Positions 11,454-24,164 of a DNA stretch of 64,000 bases are shown piece by piece (position 1 is the first letter of the stretch; each line of letters begins with the position of its first letter). Source of the DNA: an uncultured Kordiimonas sp. (GTDB taxonomy: Bacteria; Pseudomonadota; Alphaproteobacteria; Sphingomonadales; Kordiimonadaceae); contig CANMRM010000002.1 in NCBI GenBank assembly GCA_947500295.1, positions 558,001 to 622,000 of the forward strand. Reading direction: 5' to 3'. The notes below the pieces were generated by a model. The model was not told where the DNA came from, did not search any database, and saw only the letters and a program-made list of their open reading frames with translations. The position numbers and the translations under genes were made by a program.

Positions 11454-11960
11454 ATGATCGATACGACCCTCAGGCGGCTTGACACTTTCGCTGAAAAGTC
11501 GGGGCAGATGCTTGCAGTTCTGCCCCTGCTTCTTGTGCTGGTGCAGTTTGCCGTAGTTCTGATGGTCTATGTTTTTTCCACAGGCAGTATTCAACTGCAG
11601 GAAAGCCTTCAGTATATCAATGCCATGATGTTCCTTGGCGGCGCGGGATACACCGCGCTCCATGACGAGCACGTGCGTGTTGACCTTCTTTACTGCAAGC
11701 TCGGCGAGCGAGGCAAAGCCTGGGTCAACTTTCTCGGCACGCTGTTTTTGCTGGTTCCGTTTCTCATCCTCTTTTGGCATGCCAGCATCCCTTACGTGAC
11801 AGATAGCTGGTCGATCCGGGAATCGAGTGTGGAAGCCAGTGGTCTGCCGTTTGTTTACCTGTTGAAAACCACGCTGTTACTGTTTGCCTTGACGCTATCG
11901 CTGCACGCTGCGGCTGACCTGATCCGGTTTGGCAAAACCCTTTTCGGGGGCAAACGCTAA
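11454..11960 (+). CDS. TRAP transporter small permease (DctQ)
   Basis: 168 residues with four predicted membrane helices and the EHVRVDL motif after helix 2 typical of DctQ. It pairs with the large permease, whose ATG overlaps its stop codon (TAATG). Confidence 0.9.
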   Translation: MIDTTLRRLDTFAEKSGQMLAVLPLLLVLVQFAVVLMVYVFSTGSIQLQESLQYINAMMFLGGAGYTALHDEHVRVDLLYCKLGERGKAWVNFLGTLFLLVPFLILFWHASIPYVTDSWSIRESSVEASGLPFVYLLKTTLLLFALTLSLHAAADLIRFGKTLFGGKR

Positions 11961-13534
11961 TGGATTTGTCTATCGTCTTGACGATTACCATGTTCCTGAC
12001 CCTGGTCGGGTTTTTGATGTCAGGGTTTCCTGTGGCCTTCACCTTGGCGGGTACCGGCCTTCTGTTTGGCGGTATCGGGATCGCGACTGGCCTGATGGAT
12101 CTCGCTTTCCTCGAAATTCTTCCAAACCGGCTGTTTGGCAGCGTCATACGCAACGAGCTCCTGTTCGCTGTGCCTTTGTTTGTCACCATGGGTGTGATGC
12201 TGGAAAAATCCAATGTTGCCGAAGAGCTTTTGGAAAGCATGGGCAAACTTTTTGGGCCGCTGCGAGGTGGGCTGGGCATTTCCGTAACCATTGTCGGTGC
12301 ATTGCTGGCCGCATCCACCGGCATTGTTGGTGCAACCGTTGTGACCATGGGTTTACTCTCCTTGCCCACAATGATGCGGCGGGGCTATGACACATCCCTG
12401 GCAACCGGGTCGATTGCGGCTGCAGGCACGCTTGGCCAGATTATCCCACCGTCCATCGTGCTGATCCTGTTGGCGGATGTCATGTCCAATGCCTGGCAAC
12501 AGGCACAGTTGAATAAAGGCCTGTTCTCCCCGGTGCCCATGAGTGCGGGGGAATTGTTCGCGGGGGCGCTTGTGCCCGGCCTCATTCTCGTTGGCATGTA
12601 TATTCTTTATCAAATTGGCATGGCGATGTTCCGACCGGAGACTTCACCGGCCATTGAGCGCCAGCCGGATACAGAAGGCACATTGTACCGGAAACTCTTC
12701 CTGGCCCTATTGCCACCGCTTTTCCTCATTGTTGCCGTACTGGGCTCAATCCTGACCGGCATTGCAACGCCGACCGAAGCTGCATCGGTAGGGGCTATTG
12801 GTGCAATCCTGCTCGGGGCCTCACGTCTGGGTATGCTGCGCACAGTCCTACTTGCCATCGCAGCCATCGTTGCGCTCCTGCTGGTTTCCACCAACTTCGA
12901 CTTACGCATGCACCGCGACATTGTCCCTACCGCGGACAAGGCGGCTTACTGGGCAGCAGTGCTGTTCACCTGCATCTTTCTTTTCGGTCTGGCACGCGCC
13001 ATCTGGCGCACCCATAAAAGCGGCGTTCTGGGCGAAGTACTGCGATCAACGGTGCGTATCAGCACCATGATTTATGCAATCCTGATCGGTGCTTCGCTTT
13101 TTTCGCTTACATTCCGCGGAATCGGCGGCGACGAAATCATTGAATCCATGCTCCATAACCTGCCGGGCGGGGAGTTCACTGCACTGCTGCTGGTCATGGT
13201 CTTGATGTTTGTACTTGGGTTCTTCCTTGATTTTATCGAAATCACCTTTGTGGTGGTGCCTGTTGTGGCTCCGGCACTGCTCGCGATGGATGGAACTTAC
13301 GGCCCGATCTGGCTTGGTGTTTTGATGGCGATGAATCTTCAGACAAGTTTCCTGACACCGCCGTTTGGCTTCGCCCTTTTTTACCTGCGCGGCGTGGTGC
13401 CGGACGAAGTCCCAACCACAGCGATCTACCGCGGTGTGCTCCCGTTTGTTGTGATCCAAGTGATCGCACTGCTGCTCATAACGCTGGAGCCCGGGCTTGT
13501 AACCTGGCTGCCCGACCTCCTGTTCAAGAACTAG
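11960..13534 (+). CDS. TRAP transporter large permease (DctM)
   Basis: 524 residues, about 12-14 hydrophobic segments, with DctM motifs: FPVAFTLAG, AASTGIVGATVVTMGLLSLPTMMRRGYD, GSIAAAGTLGQIIPPSI and MNLQTSFLTPPFGFALFYLRGV. It is longer than the usual 425-440 residues because of extra hydrophobic segments between the two conserved halves (about residues 285-385), a feature of the TakM-like subgroup. It translocates the ligand delivered by the binding protein in symport with sodium. Overlaps dctQ by one base. Confidence 0.92.
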   Translation: MDLSIVLTITMFLTLVGFLMSGFPVAFTLAGTGLLFGGIGIATGLMDLAFLEILPNRLFGSVIRNELLFAVPLFVTMGVMLEKSNVAEELLESMGKLFGPLRGGLGISVTIVGALLAASTGIVGATVVTMGLLSLPTMMRRGYDTSLATGSIAAAGTLGQIIPPSIVLILLADVMSNAWQQAQLNKGLFSPVPMSAGELFAGALVPGLILVGMYILYQIGMAMFRPETSPAIERQPDTEGTLYRKLFLALLPPLFLIVAVLGSILTGIATPTEAASVGAIGAILLGASRLGMLRTVLLAIAAIVALLLVSTNFDLRMHRDIVPTADKAAYWAAVLFTCIFLFGLARAIWRTHKSGVLGEVLRSTVRISTMIYAILIGASLFSLTFRGIGGDEIIESMLHNLPGGEFTALLLVMVLMFVLGFFLDFIEITFVVVPVVAPALLAMDGTYGPIWLGVLMAMNLQTSFLTPPFGFALFYLRGVVPDEVPTTAIYRGVLPFVVIQVIALLLITLEPGLVTWLPDLLFKN

Positions 13535-13600
13535 TCGAGCTAACGCAAAGTTTATCGGGCTTTTGTTGTCGGTTGGGCTGAGCGCTGTTACCTACCCACC

Positions 13601-14062
13601 ATGAACCAAGTATCAAAAAAATCAGGCTCTTCTCTCTTGAAGAAAATCTGGGCTCAGGTCGGTTTTATCGGCCTGATCGCTATCCTGCTGTGGGGCAATC
13701 TCATTTATATGAATTTGCGCCCTTCCGACCCCATTTTGCCAGGATGGGAAGAGTATTCCACTGCCCGGTTTGAAACACTGATGCAACGCGGCGAGCCGAT
13801 GCTGGTGGAGGTTTATGCCTCCTGGTGCCCGACATGCCTGCTGCAGCACAAGGCGCTGGAGACTTTACATGATCAAGGCAGGGGTCCAAAAGTGCGGGCC
13901 ATACGGGTTGATTTTGATCGCGACGCCGATTTCATTCAGGCGTTTGGTTTTCGCCATACAGGTACCATGGTTCTCTTCAACGATGGCAAAGAGGTGACCC
14001 GCAAGGCTGGTCTGGTCACCCCCGAAAAGATCGAGTTTTTTCTGGCTGAAAACGGATTCTAG
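13601..14062 (+). CDS. Membrane-anchored thioredoxin-like protein
   Basis: 153 residues: one N-terminal membrane helix (19-37) then a periplasmic thioredoxin fold with the active site W75-C-P-T-C79 and EVYASWCPTC context. It ends with a 4-base overlap with the convergent histidine kinase gene. Likely a periplasmic disulfide oxidoreductase or reductant carrier; partner unknown. Confidence 0.85.
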   Translation: MNQVSKKSGSSLLKKIWAQVGFIGLIAILLWGNLIYMNLRPSDPILPGWEEYSTARFETLMQRGEPMLVEVYASWCPTCLLQHKALETLHDQGRGPKVRAIRVDFDRDADFIQAFGFRHTGTMVLFNDGKEVTRKAGLVTPEKIEFFLAENGF

Positions 14063-16239
14063 CCTTCGTCGACAACGCCGTCCATGGGCATAAAATGTGT
14101 ATCCACTGCTTGCAGCAGCGCCTGCAGATTTATTGGCTTACCAACAACTGCGTTCATGCCAACTTGTTGATATAATTCACGATCTGCTTCCATGGTATTG
14201 GCCGTAAGCGCTACAACCGGTACGTTTGCATAGGTGTTTTCAGACTGGCGAATTTGCTCGGTCGCCTGAATGCCATCCAGCACCGGCATACGAATATCCA
14301 TTAAAACACCATCGTAAACTTCGCCATTCTCCAGCCGCTCAACTGCCTCCCTGCCGTTTGACACCATAGTGAGTTGCCAGGGAAAGGGGGCTAAAAGTTT
14401 CTTTACCAGAAGCTGATTGATTGGATTGTCCTCGGCAACAAGAACTTTCAGAGGGTGTTCTGCGGCGCTTGGGCGAGCAAGGGGACGGGACTCGGTATCG
14501 CTTTTTAAAACAGGCGCAACATCAAACTTCGCCTTGAAGCGAAAAACCGCACCGATGCCCTGTTCACCGGTTGCCGCCAGCGTACCACCCATAAGTTCTG
14601 CAAGTTCCCGGGAGATTGCAAGGCCAAGGCCGGTACCACTTTCATTCTTGGTGGCAGACGCATCCACTTGTTCAAATCGTTCAAATATCTGTTCTGCCTG
14701 CTCCGGTGTAAATCCAATGCCGGTGTCTTCGACGCAGACGCACAAAGCGCATGTATCTTTTTGGCGGCACAGGTCAAACGTGACTTCCACGCTGCCCTCG
14801 CTAGTGAACTTGATTGCATTGCCGATGATATTGAACAGGATTTGCTGCACTCTGCTGACGTCACCCAGCAATGCATAATCAACGCTGTCAGGCTCTTTTA
14901 CTTTTATTGCCAGTGATTTCTTGTCTGCCGTTGGTCGCAGAGCCTCAACAACTTCGCGCACCGCGTTCACAATATCGAAAGGCTTTTTAACCAGCTTGAT
15001 CTTGCCCGATTCAATCTTCGCCAGTTCCAGCACATCATCAATGATCCCAAGCAACGACCGCGCACTGGTATCGGCGGCAAAAAGAAGTTGTTGCTGTTCT
15101 TTGTCTATCTGCGTCTGCTTCAGCAGATCGATCATGCCAATCACACCAGTAAGCGGCGTACGCAACTCGTGGCTTGTATTGGCAAGAAACGCATCTTTTG
15201 CTGCATTTGCCTGGCGCGCAACTTCCCTGTCAGCAAGCGCTTTTTCGAGCTCTATCTGTTTCGATTCAAGCGCACGATTCTTGTCTCGAATGGCTTTTTC
15301 AGTTTCCAGTATTCTGCTGATATCGCGCGCGACCGCCGTTGTAGCGACTTGCGCACCCTGGTCATTGAAACTGGGGGTTAGACTGATGTCCATGGTCAGA
15401 ACAGCGCCATCCCCCTTCAGCACGTCGATGTTGCCGCGCCAGGATCCATGTTTCTCGAGGCTTGCTACCTGCTCACACTTCACAGCCTGCCATTGTTCCT
15501 GGCTGGCATAAAAAACACTGACATTCTGTCCTATGAGTTGCTCGCGAGAGTAACCATAAATCTCGGACGCCGCTTCGTTACAATCAATGATGGTTCCATC
15601 TATGTTCGTTATTGTCACGGCTTCCCGCACGCTTTCAATCATTTGGGCCTGATGTTCAATTTTCTCAAGCGCGCGCAGCTCCGCAAGTTTTGAACTTGTG
15701 AGGGCAGCCACAGCCACTAGCGTTTCCAAATGATCCTGCGTGAAAAAATGAGGTCGCGGATCCTCGCTGTCGATCACCCCCAGAAGCTCAGAACCATGGA
15801 GTATGGGAACGCATATTTCGGAACGGGCTGGATTGATGTCTGCAACATAATCCTGATCGGATAACAAATCGGCAACCAACTCCGGCTTCCGGCGCTTGGC
15901 CACACGCCCGGACACACCAACACCGATGGGAATTTCAAGTTGATTGGCAATCGTACGCCCTGAAGGGTTTTTGTCGCCGATTGCCGCTTGCTGGATGAGG
16001 ACCTGCCGGTCTTCATCCACGCTGTATAGGACGCAATCCAAAAAACCCAGGCGACCCACAACTTCCTTCGCCACGTACCAGACCAAATCGTCCGCAGACG
16101 ATATCTGGATCAGCGACACCGCAAATTCATGCAGTATACGAAGTTGTTCTTCTTTCGACTGGATTCCTCGCAACAGCTCGATACGCTCGTCGTCCGAGCA
16201 GCTCAAGAGCTGTCGCGCCAATTGCTCGACATCCTGCAC
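14059..16239 (-). CDS. Soluble hybrid sensor histidine kinase (GAF-PAS-HisKA-HATPase-REC)
   Basis: 726 residues without membrane helices. Domain order: a helical N-terminus, GAF (about 35-190; ICVPILHGSELLGVIDSED), PAS (about 200-315; ITNIDGTIIDCNEAASEIYGY), coiled coil, HisKA with the phospho-acceptor H-box NTSHELRTPLTG (near 355), HATPase_c with N, G1 and G2 boxes (NAIKFTSEG; DTGIGF; GTGLGLAISRELAELMGG) and a C-terminal receiver (LMDIRMPVLDG). It senses an intracellular cue and would hand phosphate from its receiver to an unlinked HPt protein. No cognate regulator is adjacent. The start ATG is the first in frame after a long AT-rich leader. Confidence 0.92.
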   Translation of the reverse strand: MQDVEQLARQLLSCSDDERIELLRGIQSKEEQLRILHEFAVSLIQISSADDLVWYVAKEVVGRLGFLDCVLYSVDEDRQVLIQQAAIGDKNPSGRTIANQLEIPIGVGVSGRVAKRRKPELVADLLSDQDYVADINPARSEICVPILHGSELLGVIDSEDPRPHFFTQDHLETLVAVAALTSSKLAELRALEKIEHQAQMIESVREAVTITNIDGTIIDCNEAASEIYGYSREQLIGQNVSVFYASQEQWQAVKCEQVASLEKHGSWRGNIDVLKGDGAVLTMDISLTPSFNDQGAQVATTAVARDISRILETEKAIRDKNRALESKQIELEKALADREVARQANAAKDAFLANTSHELRTPLTGVIGMIDLLKQTQIDKEQQQLLFAADTSARSLLGIIDDVLELAKIESGKIKLVKKPFDIVNAVREVVEALRPTADKKSLAIKVKEPDSVDYALLGDVSRVQQILFNIIGNAIKFTSEGSVEVTFDLCRQKDTCALCVCVEDTGIGFTPEQAEQIFERFEQVDASATKNESGTGLGLAISRELAELMGGTLAATGEQGIGAVFRFKAKFDVAPVLKSDTESRPLARPSAAEHPLKVLVAEDNPINQLLVKKLLAPFPWQLTMVSNGREAVERLENGEVYDGVLMDIRMPVLDGIQATEQIRQSENTYANVPVVALTANTMEADRELYQQVGMNAVVGKPINLQALLQAVDTHFMPMDGVVDEG

Positions 16240-16486: not shown

Positions 16487-16867
16487 ATGCTCGGATATGT
16501 ATCACTCGGCACTAACGATTTTGAACGCGCGCGCGATTTCTACGATGACTTACTGGCCGTCGTAGGCGCCAAAAGAGTCTGGGACAGCGATAGTTTCATT
16601 GCCTGGAGCAACGCCGCCGCTGGCGGACTGGCCATTGCCAAACCCTATGATGGTGAACCTGCGACAGTTGGTAACGGTGTGATGGCCGCAATTGCAGCAC
16701 CGGACCGTGCAACCGTTGATAAGATTTACGAGAAAGCAATAGCACTTGGTGCTGCTGACGAAGGTGGTCCTGGCCTGCGTGGCGGCGATGACAGCACTTT
16801 CTACGCTGCCTACTTCCGTGATCCGGATGGCAATAAACTCAACGCTTTTTACATGGGCCCGGCTTAA
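16487..16867 (+). CDS. VOC (glyoxalase-fold) family protein
   Basis: 126 residues from the ATG at 16487, chosen because GAGGAGGG sits 4-8 bases upstream and the conserved start MLGYVSLGTNDFERARDFY follows; an in-frame frame extends to 16415 without a ribosome site. The C-terminal FRDPDGNKLNAF is the usual VOC ending with the metal-binding region. Substrate unknown; monocistronic and closed by a strong terminator. Confidence 0.85.
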   Translation: MLGYVSLGTNDFERARDFYDDLLAVVGAKRVWDSDSFIAWSNAAAGGLAIAKPYDGEPATVGNGVMAAIAAPDRATVDKIYEKAIALGAADEGGPGLRGGDDSTFYAAYFRDPDGNKLNAFYMGPA

Positions 16868-16923
16868 TCAGCCAACTGGCGTAGGCCCCAATAATACGAA
16901 AGCTAAACCTTCCCCAAACACTG

Positions 16924-16953
16924 AAGGCGGCCACTCCTGACCGCCTTTTTTTT
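16924..16953 (+). terminator. Rho-independent terminator after the VOC gene
   Basis: AAGGCGG and CCGCCTT form a perfect 7-bp stem with a 10-base loop followed by a run of T. It may also stop the convergent CBS operon, which ends at 16987, since A residues flank the stem on the other side. Confidence 0.8.
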
Positions 16954-16986
16954 CAAACTGGCTATCAAACCACCCGAAGCAAAAAC

Positions 16987-17388
16987 TCACTGAAAGTCGG
17001 CGCAGCGCAGCACCATATCTCTCAGAGTAACGATGCCTACCGCCTTCCCGGCCTCCAACACCAGTGCTCTGGACACGGAAAACCGCGTCAGAAGTCGGAT
17101 TGCATAGCGAACATTCATCTCTACATCGATCGATAGAACAGGTTTAGTCATGATTTCGTAGGCACTGACGCGATCCGGCGACAGGTCGGGCACCAGCACA
17201 CCTCGTGCAATATCATGCACTGTCAGCAGTCCATATTCGTCCACGTCGTCACGCCGTTCAATGATCAGCGAGCTAATCTGTTTACGCCGCAAACGTTCCA
17301 GGGCATCGGACACTGAAGTCAGGCCGTCAATCATTTCGATGTCTGTTGTCATTACGTTGCGGACAGGCAGGTATTTTACGGGTGTCAT
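16987..17388 (-). CDS. Two-CBS-domain protein
   Basis: 133 residues made of two CBS motifs, about 8-65 (VRNVMTTDIEMIDGLTSV ... GLLTVHDIARGV) and 75-130 (AYEIMTKPVLSI ... VGIVTLRDMV). Such pairs bind adenine nucleotides and regulate a partner. Its ATG overlaps the stop of the PII-like gene by four bases, so the two are translationally coupled. It is the last gene of the DUF1538 operon and is the likely energy or nucleotide sensor of that unit. Confidence 0.88.
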   Translation of the reverse strand: MTPVKYLPVRNVMTTDIEMIDGLTSVSDALERLRRKQISSLIIERRDDVDEYGLLTVHDIARGVLVPDLSPDRVSAYEIMTKPVLSIDVEMNVRYAIRLLTRFSVSRALVLEAGKAVGIVTLRDMVLRCADFQ

Positions 17389-17735
17389 ATCTGTTCCTCA
17401 ATTTCTTCCTTGATGGCATCCAGTTGGGAGCCGAGACCAACCGCGTCTTCAACCGGCACCTGAAATACAACACCGGAGCCCGGTTTTTCCCCGAACCGCC
17501 CTTCTTCGGCAATGCGCTCCAGGATGGTGCGGCTCATATGCTGCTCGACAATGAACAACAACACATCAACCTGCCCCTCGAGCGTGAGGCCGAGAAACGT
17601 CTTGGCTGGCTTGAGCCCTTCACCGCGTGCGCTCTTGATAACAGTGGCACCGGTCGCTCCTTCTTTGCGGGCGACTTCAATCACCTTTTCGGTGTGTTCG
17701 TCGGCAACCAGCGCAATGATCAGCTTGAATTTCAT
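17385..17735 (-). CDS. PII-like signalling protein
   Basis: 116 residues with the ferredoxin-like pattern of the GlnB superfamily: MKFKLIIALVADEHTEKVIEVARKEGATGATVI, then QVDVLLFIVEQ and a C-terminal GSGVVFQVPVEDAVGL. The T-loop is short (SARGEGLKPAKTFLGLT) and lacks the uridylylated Tyr51 motif of GlnB/GlnK, so regulation by GlnD is unlikely. Its position between two DUF1538 membrane genes and a CBS gene suggests it gates the membrane protein, as GlnK does AmtB or SbtB does SbtA. That role is inferred. Confidence 0.85.
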   Translation of the reverse strand: MKFKLIIALVADEHTEKVIEVARKEGATGATVIKSARGEGLKPAKTFLGLTLEGQVDVLLFIVEQHMSRTILERIAEEGRFGEKPGSGVVFQVPVEDAVGLGSQLDAIKEEIEEQI

Positions 17736-17764
17736 ATCCAGTTCCTCATTTTGATAATAGCCTT

Positions 17765-18550
17765 CTAATCAGTCTTGTTTCCACCGCGTTTGCGGGCCAG
17801 AAGTTCTGACAACTGCGCGTAGCCCATCACCGTGACCATGGGAAAGAGGCTGGCAAGCGCTATCAGCCCAAACCCGTCGATCAACACACTGCGCCCCGGC
17901 ACCGTGGACGCCAGCCCCAGCCCGAGCGCCGTTACCAGGGGCACAGTTACAGTTGACGTGGTCACACCGCCGCTGTCATACGCAAGCGGGACGATCATTT
18001 TCGGCGCAAAGACGGTCTGCACCACCACCAGCAGATATCCTACCATCATGTACATCGCGAGCGGCGTTCCGGTCACGATCCTGAAGGCACCAAGTGCAAT
18101 GCTGGCCGCTACGCCGACCGCGACCGCGATCCTGAGCCCCCATGGGCTGATGGCGCCTCCTGATGCTTCGCTTGCTTTCATCGCAACTGCAATCAGCGAC
18201 GGTTCAGCAACGGTTGTCGAAAAACCGATCGCTGCAGCGAAGATAAACACCCAGTAATAGTGCCACCATTCAATCACGGCACCTGGTGCCGCATCTGGTG
18301 CAAGAAACGCCGGATCGGTCAGCTGTTTAGCCATAATATCCCCAAGGGGGAACAAGGCTTCCTGCAGCCCGATCAGAAAAAGTGCAAGCCCGGCAACAAC
18401 ATAGATAAAACCAACGATTGTCCGCTTCAGGTTCGGGATCTTCTCCCGAATGACAACAAGCTGAAAAAAAACGAGCAGCAACCCAATGGGCAACACATCC
18501 CGGATAGTGGCGACAACGGTATAGGCAATGTTGGTGAGAATTCCCTCCAT
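17765..18550 (-). CDS. DUF1538 integral membrane protein, subunit 2
   Basis: 261 residues, mostly hydrophobic, about seven predicted membrane segments. Shared with its upstream neighbour are a re-entrant-like motif TTVAEPSLIAVA near residue 120 and [23 protein letters not shown] near residue 195. These polar-rich repeats in an otherwise hydrophobic protein look like a pore or substrate site. It ends in a basic tail (ARKRGGNKTD). It starts 3 bases after the stop of the first DUF1538 gene. Transported solute unknown. Confidence 0.8.
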   Translation of the reverse strand: MEGILTNIAYTVVATIRDVLPIGLLLVFFQLVVIREKIPNLKRTIVGFIYVVAGLALFLIGLQEALFPLGDIMAKQLTDPAFLAPDAAPGAVIEWWHYYWVFIFAAAIGFSTTVAEPSLIAVAMKASEASGGAISPWGLRIAVAVGVAASIALGAFRIVTGTPLAMYMMVGYLLVVVQTVFAPKMIVPLAYDSGGVTTSTVTVPLVTALGLGLASTVPGRSVLIDGFGLIALASLFPMVTVMGYAQLSELLARKRGGNKTD

Positions 18551-18553
18551 GTT

Positions 18554-19276
18554 CTAGACCACCATGCCGTAAACAAGGACAAAAGCGACCGGAAACAGGC
18601 TTGCAAACGCAATCAGGCCAAAACCATCCACCATCGGATTACGCCCCTTGATTACTGTGGACAGGCCGATTCCAAGCGCCGTAACAAGCGGTACGGTGAT
18701 CGTCGACGTGGTAACACCGCCGCTGTCGTAAGCGACCCCGATGATCTCCTTGGGGGCAAACTGGGTCAAAGAGACGATCACAAGGTAGCCTGCGATGATA
18801 ATATAATGGATCGGCCATCCTTTCAGGATGCGCAGAACACCTACCACCAGCGAAGCCCCCACCGAGACAGCGACTGTGGCACGCAGTCCAAGCGCATAGT
18901 TTTGCTGCGCCACGTCACCCTGCTCGATCATGCCCGCAACCGCACTGATGCGGGCGGCTTCTTGCGAAACAGCTATGAGTGCAGGCTCCGCTACCGTCGT
19001 ACCGAACCCCAGCGCAAACGCAAAAGTCAGAAGCCAGAAAACGCTGCCGCGCCGCACAAAAGCCCCGGCCATATTTTCCCCAAATGGGAAGAGGCTTAAC
19101 TCCAGGCCCTCAATAAAGAGCGCAAGCCCCAGCACAACCGCCACCAGCCCGAGAAGAATGCGTCCGGGCGTCGGAAAAGGTTGCTGCAAAACCACAAGCT
19201 GAAAAAACAGGATAACCAGAATGATCGGCGCCAGATCGCGCAACGCATCCATTACCGTCCGCATAAAATGCTTCAT
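18554..19276 (-). CDS. DUF1538 integral membrane protein, subunit 1
   Basis: 240 residues, about seven hydrophobic segments, clearly paralogous to the next gene: [15 protein letters not shown] near residue 93 and [23 protein letters not shown] near residue 185. In other genomes I recall DUF1538 also as a double-length protein, so the two genes probably encode two halves of one pseudo-symmetric carrier or channel. First gene of a four-gene operon (DUF1538, DUF1538, PII-like, CBS). No function has been recognised for the family. Confidence 0.8.
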
Positions 19277-19444
19277 GGCACCTCACTACAGAAAACCGGG
19301 CCGACAGGGCTCATTCCTGCCAATGCCACCAACTTTGGGGCAAACTGGTTTTATGTGTGTTGACGGATGTCAAAAATGTCAGATGCAGGTACTGATTTTA
19401 CGTGCCACCACGCATGCATAATTATGGGCTCAAAACGGTTCCGG

Positions 19445-19843
19445 TCAGCCCCCGGCTTTCATGCGCTCCAGCATCAGGCCCATCATTTCGTGAACCTTGT
19501 TGACCGCCTTTAACGGGCGCACCATCACCTTGAATTCAATGATTTTGCCGGCGTCATTCCAGGTAATCATGTCTATGCCATCGATTTTGATGCCGTCAAT
19601 TTCAGTAACAAATTCAACAACGGCACCCTGTTGACTTAGAAATTCGTTCACATAGCGGAAGTTGTCACCACCGAGCACGTTGCCGGCAGCTGCAAGATAA
19701 GCAAACGTGATTGCCTTGCCTTCCTGCGGTGTGTGCACGACCGGCGAATGGAAAACAACGTCATCGGCCAGCATGTCGGCTAGAGCCTGCTCATCATGCT
19801 GCTCCATGAAATCATACCAGCGCTGCAGATTTTCTTTGCTCAT
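19445..19843 (-). CDS. SnoaL/NTF2-like family protein
   Basis: 132 residues with the NTF2-fold pattern: RWYDFMEQHDEQALADMLADDVVFHSPV at the start, then FVTEIDGIKIDGIDMITWNDAGKIIEFKVMVRP. Members are small cone-shaped enzymes or ligand binders, often isomerases or steroid-type hydrolases. No catalytic assignment is possible. It lies just downstream of a terminator ending the parC transcript. Confidence 0.78.
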   Translation of the reverse strand: MSKENLQRWYDFMEQHDEQALADMLADDVVFHSPVVHTPQEGKAITFAYLAAAGNVLGGDNFRYVNEFLSQQGAVVEFVTEIDGIKIDGIDMITWNDAGKIIEFKVMVRPLKAVNKVHEMMGLMLERMKAGG

Positions 19844-19858
19844 TTCTGCCTCCCCAAG

Positions 19859-19885
19859 AAAAAAGGCACCCGACCGGGTACCTTT
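19859..19885 (-). terminator. Rho-independent terminator after parC
   Basis: On the minus strand AAAGGTACCCG pairs with CGGGTGCCTTT (one G-U pair) and runs into a T tract. It lies between the parC stop and the downstream NTF2-like gene. Confidence 0.72.
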
Positions 19886-19919
19886 CTGAAACTATGGCGG
19901 TGTTTCCGATGATCAATGG

Positions 19920-22163
19920 TCAACGGAATTTTTTGTTGCGCGGGAAGCCCATCGGCGGCAGCCGCCCGGCATTGCCGCGCTTGCCGGTCCATGGCGCGAG
20001 ATCGGTTTCCGTGCGCCAGCGCTCGGACGCGCCACCCATTGGCCAGGTCAGCCCTTCGTCGCGGTGGAAAGTGATAAGGTCACTCATGCCGCCGTCTTTG
20101 TAACGCTGTAGTGTAACACCCTGCCCGCGGTTCATACTCGGCAGTTCGTCAAGCCCGAAAACCAACAGCTTTCTGTTATCCCCGATGACAGCTACAGTGT
20201 CACCGGCAACAGGAATGCAGTGCGTTGCAACGGCTTCCCCCGGTAGATTGAGGATTTGCTTGCCACCCTTTTTCATCGCTACCGCATTGTCGGCTTCAAC
20301 AACAAACCCTTTGCCGATAGAGCTTGCCACCACGAGTTTGCCGCCCGGCATATGGGGCAACAGCGATATAACCTCGTCGTTGGCATCCATATCCACCATC
20401 AAACGCACAGGCTCGCCGTTGCCGCGCCCTCCCGGCAACTTGTCGCCGCCGAGAGTGTAGATCTTGCCATTTGAGGCAAACAGGAAGATTTTGTCGGTGG
20501 TGTAGGCATGGAAGCGGAACTTTTCCTCATCGCCTTCTTTGTACTTCAGCACTTCTTCAGGCTTCGTGTGACCCTTGAGCGCGCGTATCCAGCCGCGTTT
20601 TGAACAAACCACAGTAATCGGTTCTTTTTCGATCATGGCCTCCAGCGGCATGACTTCCGCAACCGGCGCTTCGCCAAACCTTGTCCGGCGGCGGCCAATG
20701 TCCGTGTCTGGGCCAAAACGCTTTTTGATGTCGGCAAATTTGTCGCCAAGCGCAATCCATTGCAGTCGCTTCGAGCCTATGAGCGCCTTGAGTTTGGACC
20801 GTTCGTCTTCAAGCTTGGTATGCTCGTTACGGATTTCGATCTCTTCGAGTTTCCTGAGAGCCCGCAACCGCATGTTCAGGATCGCCTCAGCCTGCATATC
20901 TGTGAGCTTGAAAGTGCTCATCAGCGATGCCTTGGCGTCATCCTCTTCACGAATAATACGAATAACCTCATCGAGATTGAGGTAGGCAATCAAATATCCC
21001 GACAGTATCTCAAGTCGTCGTTCGATTTTCTCAAGCCGGAACTGGCTGCGCCGTATCAGCACGTCGACCTGATGATCAAGAAACGCATCAAGTGTCTGTT
21101 TAAGCGACAGGACATGCGGCTTGTTTTCCGCAGTAATCACATTGAGGTTGAGTGAAAAGCGGGTTTCCAGGTCGGTGAGCTTGAACAAGCTTTCCATCAG
21201 GATTTTTTCATCAACCGTGCGGTTCTTGGGCTCCAACACAATCCGCATGTCTTCAGCAGACTCGTCGCGTACGTCGGTCAGGATCGGCAGTTTCTTGTCG
21301 GAAATCAGCTCAGCGATCTTTTCGATCAACTTTGATTTCTGCACCTGAAAAGGGATTTCGGTAATGACGATATTATAGAGACCACGCGGCAGTTCTTCTT
21401 TTTCCCACTTCGCGCGCACCCTGAAGCTGCCACGACCGGTGTCATAGGCCTGAACAATGTTTTCGCGCGGCTCCACAATCTGCCCGCCTGTCGGGAAATC
21501 AGGTCCGGGAATATAGTCCATCAACTGCGCTGTACTGACTTCGAGCGACGGGTCACGCCTCGCCTCGATCAAAAGCTGCAAACCATCCATCAACTCGCCG
21601 ACATTATGCGGCGGGATGTTGGTTGCCATCCCGACGGCAATCCCGCTTGACCCGTTGGCGAGCAGGTTTGGAAAGGCACCCGGAAAAACAACGGGCTCTT
21701 CCTCTTCACCGTCATAGGTGGGACGAAAATCAACGGCGTTTTCTTCCAATCCTTCCATAAGGATTGCCGCGACCTCGGTCATGCGCGCTTCTGTGTATCG
21801 CATGGCCGCTGCGTTATCACCGTCAATGTTACCGAAGTTGCCCTGCCCATCCACCAGCGGATACCGCACGGAAAAATCCTGCGCCAGCCGCACCAACGCG
21901 TCGTACACCGACTGGTCGCCATGCGGATGATACTTACCGATAACGTCGCCCACCACGCGCGCACATTTTTTGTAGCCGGTTTTAGGGTCCAGCTTCAGCA
22001 TGCGCATAGCATATAGAAGCCGCCGGTGCACCGGCTTCAAACCGTCACGCACGTCAGGTAGCGAACGGGACATGATGGTAGACAAAGCGTACGCCAGATA
22101 GCGTTCGCTCAATGCTTCCGCAAAGGGAGCCTCGACAATCGATTCAGGTGCTAACTCACTCAT
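19920..22163 (-). CDS. parC: DNA topoisomerase IV subunit A
   Basis: 747 residues. The breakage-reunion domain contains KPVHRRLLYAM, the quinolone-region KYHPHGDQSVYDALVRLAQ (78-96) and catalytic Y123 in AAMRYTEARM. A long coiled-coil arm follows, then degenerate C-terminal beta-pinwheel blades. ParC length, the absence of a GyrA-box (QRRGGKG) and context distinguish it from GyrA. With ParE it decatenates daughter chromosomes. At the E. coli Ser80 position the residue is Gln, followed by Ser. Confidence 0.93.
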   Translation of the reverse strand: MSELAPESIVEAPFAEALSERYLAYALSTIMSRSLPDVRDGLKPVHRRLLYAMRMLKLDPKTGYKKCARVVGDVIGKYHPHGDQSVYDALVRLAQDFSVRYPLVDGQGNFGNIDGDNAAAMRYTEARMTEVAAILMEGLEENAVDFRPTYDGEEEEPVVFPGAFPNLLANGSSGIAVGMATNIPPHNVGELMDGLQLLIEARRDPSLEVSTAQLMDYIPGPDFPTGGQIVEPRENIVQAYDTGRGSFRVRAKWEKEELPRGLYNIVITEIPFQVQKSKLIEKIAELISDKKLPILTDVRDESAEDMRIVLEPKNRTVDEKILMESLFKLTDLETRFSLNLNVITAENKPHVLSLKQTLDAFLDHQVDVLIRRSQFRLEKIERRLEILSGYLIAYLNLDEVIRIIREEDDAKASLMSTFKLTDMQAEAILNMRLRALRKLEEIEIRNEHTKLEDERSKLKALIGSKRLQWIALGDKFADIKKRFGPDTDIGRRRTRFGEAPVAEVMPLEAMIEKEPITVVCSKRGWIRALKGHTKPEEVLKYKEGDEEKFRFHAYTTDKIFLFASNGKIYTLGGDKLPGGRGNGEPVRLMVDMDANDEVISLLPHMPGGKLVVASSIGKGFVVEADNAVAMKKGGKQILNLPGEAVATHCIPVAGDTVAVIGDNRKLLVFGLDELPSMNRGQGVTLQRYKDGGMSDLITFHRDEGLTWPMGGASERWRTETDLAPWTGKRGNAGRLPPMGFPRNKKFR

Positions 22164-22265: not shown

Positions 22266-24164
22266 TTACTCAGCAGCGATCGACATGCCGATACCAACGG
22301 CTGTGTCATGCTTGAGCTTACGCGATAGCTCCATGCCGTGCTGCGCACAGCCGGTCGTGGTTTGCACCGACGCTGAAATATCCTGCAATGCGACCGAAAT
22401 GCTGGAAACGGCTGTTGCCGCATTCTGCATGTTGCTGGTAATTTCCTGCGATGTAACGCTCTGTTCCTCGACGGCGCTCGCCACGACAACAAAGCTTTGC
22501 TGAACACTTTTCACTTCCTCGCCGATGCGGGTCAGGCTTGAGACGACACGCTCGGATACCTGTTGTACATTGGTGATCTCGCCAGAAATTTGTGATGTAG
22601 CAGAGGCCACCTGATTGGCAAGAGCCTTCACCTCGCTTGCAACAACGGCGAAACCTCTGCCAGCTTCACCGGCGCGCGCCGATTCGATCGTGGCGTTCAG
22701 AGCGAGCAGGTTAATCTGCTCGGCAATTTCCTGAATGATTTCGACAATACCAGTCATCGAATCGGTGGCCTCTGCGAGTTCCTGTGTTGCTTTGTCAGCG
22801 GTGTTTGCCTCGTTGGCGGCGCGCTCGACGGACGAGTTTGTTCCGGTCACGCTCTGGGCGATTTCGTTCGCCGAGGCATTAAACTGCTCCGCAGCTGCGG
22901 CAACAGCCTGAACGGTCGATGACGCCTCTTCAGACGCCCCCGCTGCCGCCGTTGCCTTTTCGTTGGCGGTATGCACCGAATTCACGATTTCATTGAGGCT
23001 GACATCGACGTCACTGCCGATCTGCTCAACTTCGCGGCGCCGGACAACTGCATTAGTGATGTCAGTCGCGAACTTGACCACCTTCATTGGTTTGCCGTCG
23101 AGCCCGAGAATGGGGTTGTAGGTCGCCTGGATCCAAACTTCACTGCCGTCCTTGGTATATCGCTTGAACTCGGCTGATTTGAAGGCACCTTCTGCCAAAG
23201 AGGCCCAAAACTCGCGGTATTCGGAACTGGCAGCGTGTGCCGTATCCACAAATATTTCATGATGTTTGCCTACGATCTCATTCAGCGAATACCCCATCGC
23301 CGACAGGAAATTCGTATTGGCGGTGATGATTGTACCATCAAGGTTAAATTCAATCACAGCCTGCGAACGATGGATCGCATCAAGCTGGCCTTCAAAGTAT
23401 GCGTTCCTGAGTTTTTGCTGCGTGACGTCGGAAGCAAACTTGACCACCTTCACCAGGCGCCCGCTGGCATCAAAAATGGGATTGTAGGACGCCTGGATCC
23501 AGACATCTGTTCTGTCCTTGGCAATCCGCCTGAATTCTCCCGACTTGAACTCGCCTTTTCTCAGGTCTGCCCAGAAACTCTTGTACTCTGCACTCTGCCC
23601 ATAAAGGGGGTCCGCAAACATCCGATGATGCTGGCCGACAATTTCTTCACGTTGGTATCCCATGACATTGAGGAAATTCTGGTTGGCCGTGATGATCGTG
23701 CCATCCAGCTCAAACTCAATCACAGCCTGTGACTTGCTGATCGCTTCCAATTGCCCTTCGAAGTTGGCATTTCTGATTTTTTCGCCTGTGATATCCGTCG
23801 CGAATTTCACGACTTTTACCGGATTGCCCCGGTTGTCAAAAACCGGATTGTAGGACGCCTGAATCCAGATCTCACGGCCACCTTTGGCAAGCCTCCTGAA
23901 TTCGGACGCCTTATAGTCGCCTCGGCGCAAACTGGCCCAAAACTCTTTATATTCTGAACTCTCGGCATAGGAAGGCTCGACGAACATCCGGTGATGCTTG
24001 CCTTTGACTTCCGCCAAATCGTACCCCATCGCGCTTAGAAAATTATCGTTGGCAGTGATGATTGTGCCATCGAGTTCAAATTCGATGACGGCTTGTGACT
24101 TACTGATCGCTTCAACAATCGCTTTATCCGATTGTCCGGCTGGCTTGATAAATTTCTGCAGCAT
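22266..24164 (-). CDS. Soluble methyl-accepting chemotaxis protein with three PAS domains (copy 1)
   Basis: 632 residues, no membrane helix. Three PAS modules of 122 residues each start near residues 19, 141 and 263; each begins with a SQAVIEF-type segment, contains GTIITAN and ends with VVKFATDIT or VVKFASDVT. Residues 390-615 form the MCP signalling hairpin with the tip [40 protein letters not shown]. No C-terminal CheR-tethering pentapeptide. Likely senses an intracellular signal, perhaps redox or a small ligand, and drives CheA. Preceded by a CtrA box. Paralogous along its full length to the next gene upstream. Confidence 0.93.
23013..24110 (-). repeat. Three in-frame PAS modules of about 366 bp (copy 1)
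   Basis: Three tandem PAS-coding repeats with a constant period of 122 codons. Conserved landmarks recur at each period, including codons for GTIITAN, HHRMF-like and WIQASYNP. Boundaries are approximate. Confidence 0.75.

Follow-up and report, generated by a model that had tools for sequence, protein, structure and literature searches.

In the AmtB-GlnK system a PII-type protein is encoded beside the transporter that it gates, and in canonical PII proteins (GlnB and GlnK) the T-loop Tyr51 and the phosphate-binding segments have recognized roles. SbtA-SbtB pairs a bicarbonate transporter with its PII-like regulator, and we know of no CBS partner for it. SbtB is described as an adenyl-nucleotide-binding regulator of SbtA that binds the transporter strongly with AMP or ADP; ATP, cAMP and c-di-AMP hinder or prevent binding. 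The PII-NG gene beside CzcABC provides a precedent for a PII-type gene next to a proton/cation antiporter (PMC7726332). Among CBS proteins, CBS-CP12 is reported in a review to be a hexamer whose AMP-bound form inhibits phosphoribulokinase activation.

The transporter most relevant here is UmpAB of Halomonas zhaodongensis, a paired DUF1538 locus reported to encode a heterodimeric, pH-dependent Na+(Li+,K+)/H+ antiporter (PMC5484666). The locus conferred tolerance of Na+, Li+ and alkaline pH on an E. coli mutant lacking three antiporters, and both UmpA and UmpB were needed for full function. Since Halomonas umpAB worked by itself in E. coli, regulators are evidently not required for transport. 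The terms P-II and CBS do not occur in the main text of that paper, and two further papers list UmpAB among other antiporters.

The DNA analyzed here (the window) is a stretch of 64,000 nucleotides from an uncultured Kordiimonas sp., in which four open reading frames on the minus strand span positions 16987 to 19276 in the order umpA-like, umpB-like, PII-like and two-CBS. The two DUF1538 genes are separated by 3 bases, the second of them and the PII-like gene by 29 bases, and the PII-like and CBS genes overlap by four. The features of the locus are as follows.

18554..19276, minus strand: umpA-like gene, DUF1538 subunit A, first of the operon; 240 aa, PF07556 at 6.3e-66
17765..18550, minus strand: umpB-like gene, DUF1538 subunit B; 261 aa, PF07556 at 3.1e-64
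17385..17735, minus strand: PII-like gene with a short T-loop bearing KTFLGL (family consensus KTFFGL); 116 aa, PF00543 at 3.9e-10
16987..17388, minus strand: two-CBS gene, a CBS-CP12-like Bateman module; 133 aa, PF00571 at 2.5e-18 in two stretches
19277..19444, minus strand: upstream spacer that travels with the block, with a weak sigma-70-like match (19448-19421) at its far end
16953..19456, minus strand: approximate extent of the block missing at the same site in genus mates, from blastn breakpoints in L256, L257 and L260
16926..16945, plus strand: terminator-like hairpin and T-run, read by eye on the plus strand, between the snoaL-like and glyoxalase genes

Both membrane proteins (222.1 and 216.6 bits) exceed the DUF1538 gathering score of PF07556 (22.6 bits), and the PII-like protein (40.4 bits) exceeds that of the PII superfamily, PF00543 (25 bits). 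Open reading frame positions, spacing and Pfam matches thus bear out the four-gene DUF1538-DUF1538-PII-like-CBS run of the original prediction. Six promoter-like sites occur in 16800-19900, compared with a mean of 2.1 in shuffled sequence; the scan that found them did not report the hairpin at 16926..16945, which was seen by eye only. An Rfam scan of the window at 16800-20000 gave no match up to E 1, and a cation riboswitch or other known RNA upstream of the operon was accordingly dropped as a candidate.

Upstream of the operon lie snoaL-like and topoisomerase IV/gyrase A genes, and downstream, on the opposite strand, a glyoxalase-family gene. Nearby, at 14059-16239 on the minus strand, is a gene for a hybrid histidine kinase in which GAF and PAS domains accompany the kinase and receiver domains; a homologue of this protein adjoins the glyoxalase match in genomes G419 and G407. 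On the plus strand, 11960-14062 holds a large permease subunit of the TRAP type (DctM) and, after it, a thioredoxin-like protein whose N-terminus looks hydrophobic by eye. A chemotaxis-type receptor at 22266-24164 (minus strand) has three similar PAS repeats and no membrane segment that could be seen by eye.

Each member of the DUF1538 pair scores best to the NCBIfam model of its own subunit type. The protein of 18554-19276 gave 362.5 bits to the UmpA model NF041627 and 176.7 to the UmpB model NF041628, and that of 17765-18550 gave 315.1 bits to UmpB and 197.7 to UmpA. Like the Halomonas locus, the window therefore has adjoining genes for two paired DUF1538 proteins, one A-type and one B-type, but the scores fall under the equivalog cut-offs (490 for NF041627, 500 for NF041628). 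The UmpB cut-off is reached in none of the 398 genomes surveyed from the window's phylum, so that the NF041628 model seems confined to proteins very near Halomonas UmpB; the top UmpB score among these genomes is 397.8 bits (G138), where a PII-like gene lies 21 bases upstream of the pair. The window proteins are UmpA- and UmpB-type homologues, and a transport role for them rests on the published homologues. That DUF1538 had no characterized function, as the original prediction held, is wrong in view of the published UmpAB antiport (PMC5484666), and the notion of a family of unknown function was rejected. A further difference from Halomonas is that the window operon adds PII-like and CBS genes, neither of which is among the four open reading frames of the Halomonas fragment as described. 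The motifs TTVAEP(A/S)LIAV and a longer one that ends, after ten residues not shown here, in (I/V)TVPLVTALG are present in both membrane proteins, as had been noted from the sequence. An internal DUF1538 repeat in the style of inverted-repeat transporters was considered and rejected (hhalign of the two halves, probability 1%), and a sequence search up to E 10 matched no solved structure to the UmpA family. Natural UmpA-UmpB fusions were considered as a way to model the dimer, but in the alignment consensus the single-domain rows collected on the first half.

The antiport activity of UmpAB comes from a complementation screen, and the same group has reported Na+/H+ antiport for several unrelated families by similar screens; in nature the substrate could therefore be a different ion. 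The DUF1538 pair might then carry, for example, a nitrogen- or carbon-related ion, with Na+/H+ antiport a side activity in the E. coli screen, and the PII-like and CBS proteins would tune its uptake or export to the nitrogen, carbon or energy state of the cell; the known PII-gated transporters do move ammonium or bicarbonate. We regard this as rather unlikely. UmpAB conferred tolerance of Na+, Li+ and alkaline pH and carried out Na+(Li+,K+)/H+ exchange that depends on pH (PMC5484666); in a later paper, where it served as positive control, it helped growth at 0.9 M KCl; its homologues in cable bacteria are mentioned as a potential adaptation to salt; and DUF1538 is listed in a table of pH-adaptation features in a machine-learning study. 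Flank genes are indecisive on the substrate, as only two of the 14 largest clusters listed are annotated (short-chain dehydrogenase and epimerase).

The third gene of the operon encodes a PII-like protein whose family profile finds canonical PII/GlnB as the best solved chains (3o8w at 2.5e-5 with the close set, 9p1x at 3.3e-7 with the wide set). A comparison with SbtB gave an alignment limited to profile positions 6-42, at E 0.0022, and canonical PII scores higher. The window protein lacks both the Tyr51 T-loop and the phosphate-binding segments of GlnB and GlnK: the loop reads GEGLKPAKTFLGLTLEGQVD and is free of Tyr, which agrees with the original prediction. Compared with solved PII proteins (2gw8, 3o8w), the T-loop has about five residues fewer, and the canonical IGDGKIF and AIRIR are replaced by PGTGIAF and AVGLE. 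We take the two canonical stretches to be nucleotide contacts of canonical PII, and as the family has no counterparts of IGDGKIF and IRIR, nucleotide binding may differ or be absent. Across 54 near-set sequences linked to the operon, G26, T28, G29, G38, G40, F47, G49, D57, G88, G100 and Q104 are invariant, and within the loop K45 is found in 48, T46 in 51, F47 in 54, F or L at position 48 in 37 and 16, G49 in 54 and L50 in 53. The loop of the wide set (50 sequences) is looser, with K45 in 35, T46 in 44, F47 in 47, F or L at 48 in 42 and 7, G49 in 50 and L50 in 46. The protein is thus a member of the PII family that has a hydrophobic and strongly conserved loop of its own and, probably, an altered ligand site.

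The CBS protein has as its best solved match, by far, the cyanobacterial CBS-CP12 (PDB 5nmu, 6.6e-36; next best 1.3e-18 in the profile search), and two segments shared with it, R-x-x-x-D-x-YG and YEIM-x-KP, are strongly conserved, which together mark it as a CBS-CP12-like Bateman module. R46, D50, G53, K82 and P83 are present in 39 of 39 family members, Asp59 in 36 and Asp124 in 25. AMP, which CBS-CP12 is reported to bind, is the first ligand candidate for the operon protein because CBS-CP12 is its nearest relative and the shared segments are conserved. Unlike CBS-CP12, the 133-aa protein has no CP12 domain; it stops after the second CBS, with no other Pfam family over the cut-off, and its neighbors form a transporter operon. 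Thr56 of the first CBS belongs to the nucleotide motif and is retained by just 8 of the 39 sequences, which counts against reading the protein as an AMP sensor.

For one or both sensors the ligand might instead be c-di-AMP, as in the control of cation transport in Gram-positive bacteria. The PII-like protein PstA/DarA is a described c-di-AMP receptor, and weak matches were obtained for the window's PII-like protein to the DarA model (E 0.077; 13.4 bits, where the cut-off is 140) and for its CBS protein to CbpB (E 0.11). The window's genome, however, carries no diadenylate cyclase domain (0/1; 11 of 14 control genomes were positive), which makes the nucleotide unlikely as a signal in this host. 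It was disfavored on that ground, and we consider a c-di-AMP-sensing operon highly improbable.

The original prediction was to fall if the four genes were rarely adjacent in other genomes. They are adjacent in many, as seen in three sets of loci that share two members (L034 = L103 and L108 = L247). DUF1538 was found in 126 of the 398 Pseudomonadota genomes of the phylum survey, and from 58 of these 126 a sample of 60 loci was picked to spread over families; it holds 12 loci from one over-represented family, most of whose genomes were omitted, and it omits genomes whose coordinates were absent from the DUF1538 match listing. Profile searches of this sample identified 63 DUF1538 clusters, with a PII-like gene next in 58 and both PII-like and CBS genes in 36, the CBS gene thus being absent from 27. 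The five clusters without a downstream PII-like gene are L050, L052, L059, L060 and the second pair of L063, where it lies upstream; for one of the five (genome G084) a PII-CBS pair is found on another contig. At L063 a single strand carries a fused DUF1538 pair, PII-like and CBS genes, a second PII-like gene and a second, Halomonas-like UmpA-UmpB pair.

Among the named loci, kept as the best 80 of 590 relatives and hence weighted toward close kin, a PII-like gene follows in 78 (all but L120 and L160) and both genes follow in 74. Many of these loci come from metagenome-assembled genomes, and those with Bacteroidota titles (L155, L168, L172) may be misbinned. The class and genus set drew on 18 of 34 matching genomes, mostly top scorers, together with two genus mates, and leaves out most of the divergent fused DUF1538 kind; here a PII-like gene is downstream in 19 of 20 loci and a CBS gene in 17. 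One of the 19 is an UmpB-PII run-on, and L244, which lacks PII, runs to the end of its contig. Extra loci chosen from PII matches, ten of them because they were apparently unlinked, are excluded from these frequencies. In loci L191-L199 a script counted the PII-like gene downstream of DUF1538 in eight of nine, and in the ninth (L191) a PII-matching frame overlaps the end of the DUF1538 frame. Loci L193-L196 belong to a divergent group of fused DUF1538 proteins of about 590 aa, followed by two consecutive PII-like genes, the second a weak match.

Distant DUF1538 proteins show the same association with PII. Eight records of a plasmid collection contain them; five records were examined (H2, H4 and H7 being left out), and PII directly follows DUF1538 in all five, by annotation in four and by profile in the fifth. 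Four of the five (L275-L278) are from Clostridia and have a fused DUF1538 pair, no CBS gene and a double-domain PII gene whose first PII domain scores lower than the second; one of these four records, 2.6 Mb long, is labelled a plasmid. The surroundings vary, with no flank cluster in more than 24 of the 160 loci given, of which 159 were used. Over 119 loci the four proteins have correlated pairwise distances, with r of 0.59-0.80 against a maximum of at most 0.23 in 200 permutations. The comparison covered only these four proteins, and shared ancestry alone would also give such correlations. Because the gene order is kept across the phylum and, minus CBS, in the four clostridial records, the association is not due to chance, and the operon idea is strongly upheld.

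The PII-like and CBS proteins might be made with the antiporter yet act elsewhere, on transcription or on enzymes, so that the operon would be a mere regulon. Ten fetched PII-like copies have flanks without DUF1538, which suggests that the family acts, or once acted, away from the DUF1538 pair as well. Some of these stand-alone genes (L181, L182, L184 and L185) have a similar loop motif and lie near glutamate-cysteine ligase-like genes, and near three of them (L182, L184 and L185) are ETF-ubiquinone oxidoreductase-like genes; the flank pair of L184 was identified by Pfam, and those of L181, L182 and L185 by eye from N-terminal similarity. The target of CBS-CP12, too, is an enzyme, PRK. Against a mere regulon stand the four-base PII-CBS overlap, seen in most CBS-bearing loci, the retention of PII beside distant DUF1538 proteins, the four clostridial ones included, and the single in-frame run-on, and we judge action elsewhere to be unlikely. 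In the run-on (L246, 6708-7862; L217 is the same gene) a single reading frame of 384 aa encodes both UmpB and the PII-like protein. Ahead of the PII part come an AAGGAGG, which resembles a ribosome-binding site, and an ATG, so that the fusion may represent a lost stop codon; it was set aside as proof of contact, for which it is weak evidence.

Within the window's genus the operon behaves as a single unit. DUF1538 is present in three of the 19 genomes of the genus, the window's own counted, and absent from the family's 10 other genomes. The snoaL-like and glyoxalase genes are 76 to 144 bases apart in five genus mates (L256, L257, L260, L265 and L266), their matches are 683 bases apart in a sixth (L270), and for the remaining operon-free genus loci the fetched stretch did not hold both flank genes. 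Homology to the window by blastn ends at 16951-16952 in L256, L257 and L260 and restarts at 19457-19469, and a similar terminator-like hairpin, by eye, is retained at these three empty sites. Genome G421 has the operon at the same site as the window, whereas G419 has it on another contig, its own snoaL-glyoxalase site being empty. The empty and filled sites, together with the copy on another contig in G419, indicate that a block of about 2.5 kb, containing exactly these genes, was acquired or lost as a unit.

With somewhat better than even confidence, we read the four genes as an UmpAB-type monovalent cation/proton antiporter set by the adenylate state through the PII-like protein and an AMP-type CBS protein. 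The sensing and gating that we infer, including the ligands, the docking and the sign of regulation, would operate as follows. The umpA-like and umpB-like products would form a heterodimer that exchanges monovalent cations for protons. The PII-like protein, a trimer if it resembles its family, would be a dedicated cytoplasmic regulator that docks on UmpAB through its shortened, KTFFGL-type T-loop, and the CBS protein, of the CBS-CP12 type, would sense AMP or the AMP/ATP ratio. Antiport spends proton-motive force, and it would be throttled at low adenylate energy charge and released at high; the low-energy throttling is modelled on SbtB acting on SbtA. A more detailed version, possible but doubtful in our estimate, has the KTFFGL loop plug UmpAB, with AMP-loaded CBS deciding whether the plug engages, and makes the operon a widespread, horizontally moved, energy-charge-gated antiporter in which the DUF1538-PII pairing, being common to Pseudomonadota and Clostridia, is very old or widely transferred.

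The genomic data agree with the original prediction that a DUF1538 pair makes up one transport system set by two small-molecule sensors, but its transporter is not of an unknown kind. We know of no antiporter with a two-sensor gate of PII-like and CBS proteins. SbtA-SbtB also joins a membrane transporter to a non-canonical PII-like regulator, and its adenine-nucleotide control is taken as the model here, but the transporter and the T-loop motif differ. AmtB-GlnK likewise has the PII-type gene beside the transporter; the window's PII-like protein is without the Tyr51-type T-loop, and DUF1538 is not of the Amt family by Pfam. CzcABC is a metal efflux system and not DUF1538, and the part of that report consulted does not mention a CBS protein (PMC7726332). 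No link of DUF1538 or UmpAB to PII or CBS was found in the open-access literature, a search that took in few subscription journals or preprints. The control arrangement, an antiporter with two predicted sensors, was not found described; the antiporter type itself, UmpAB, is already known.

In the four annotated records examined, this PII-like type is annotated as "P-II family nitrogen regulator", a label that may mislead. If the PII-like proteins do gate the antiporter, PII signalling would in many bacteria extend to the homeostasis of sodium, potassium and pH, and UmpAB would gain a layer of control that was not looked at in the 2017 work. The four-gene operon offers a compact test case for how bacteria short of energy may prevent cation/proton antiport from dissipating their proton-motive force.
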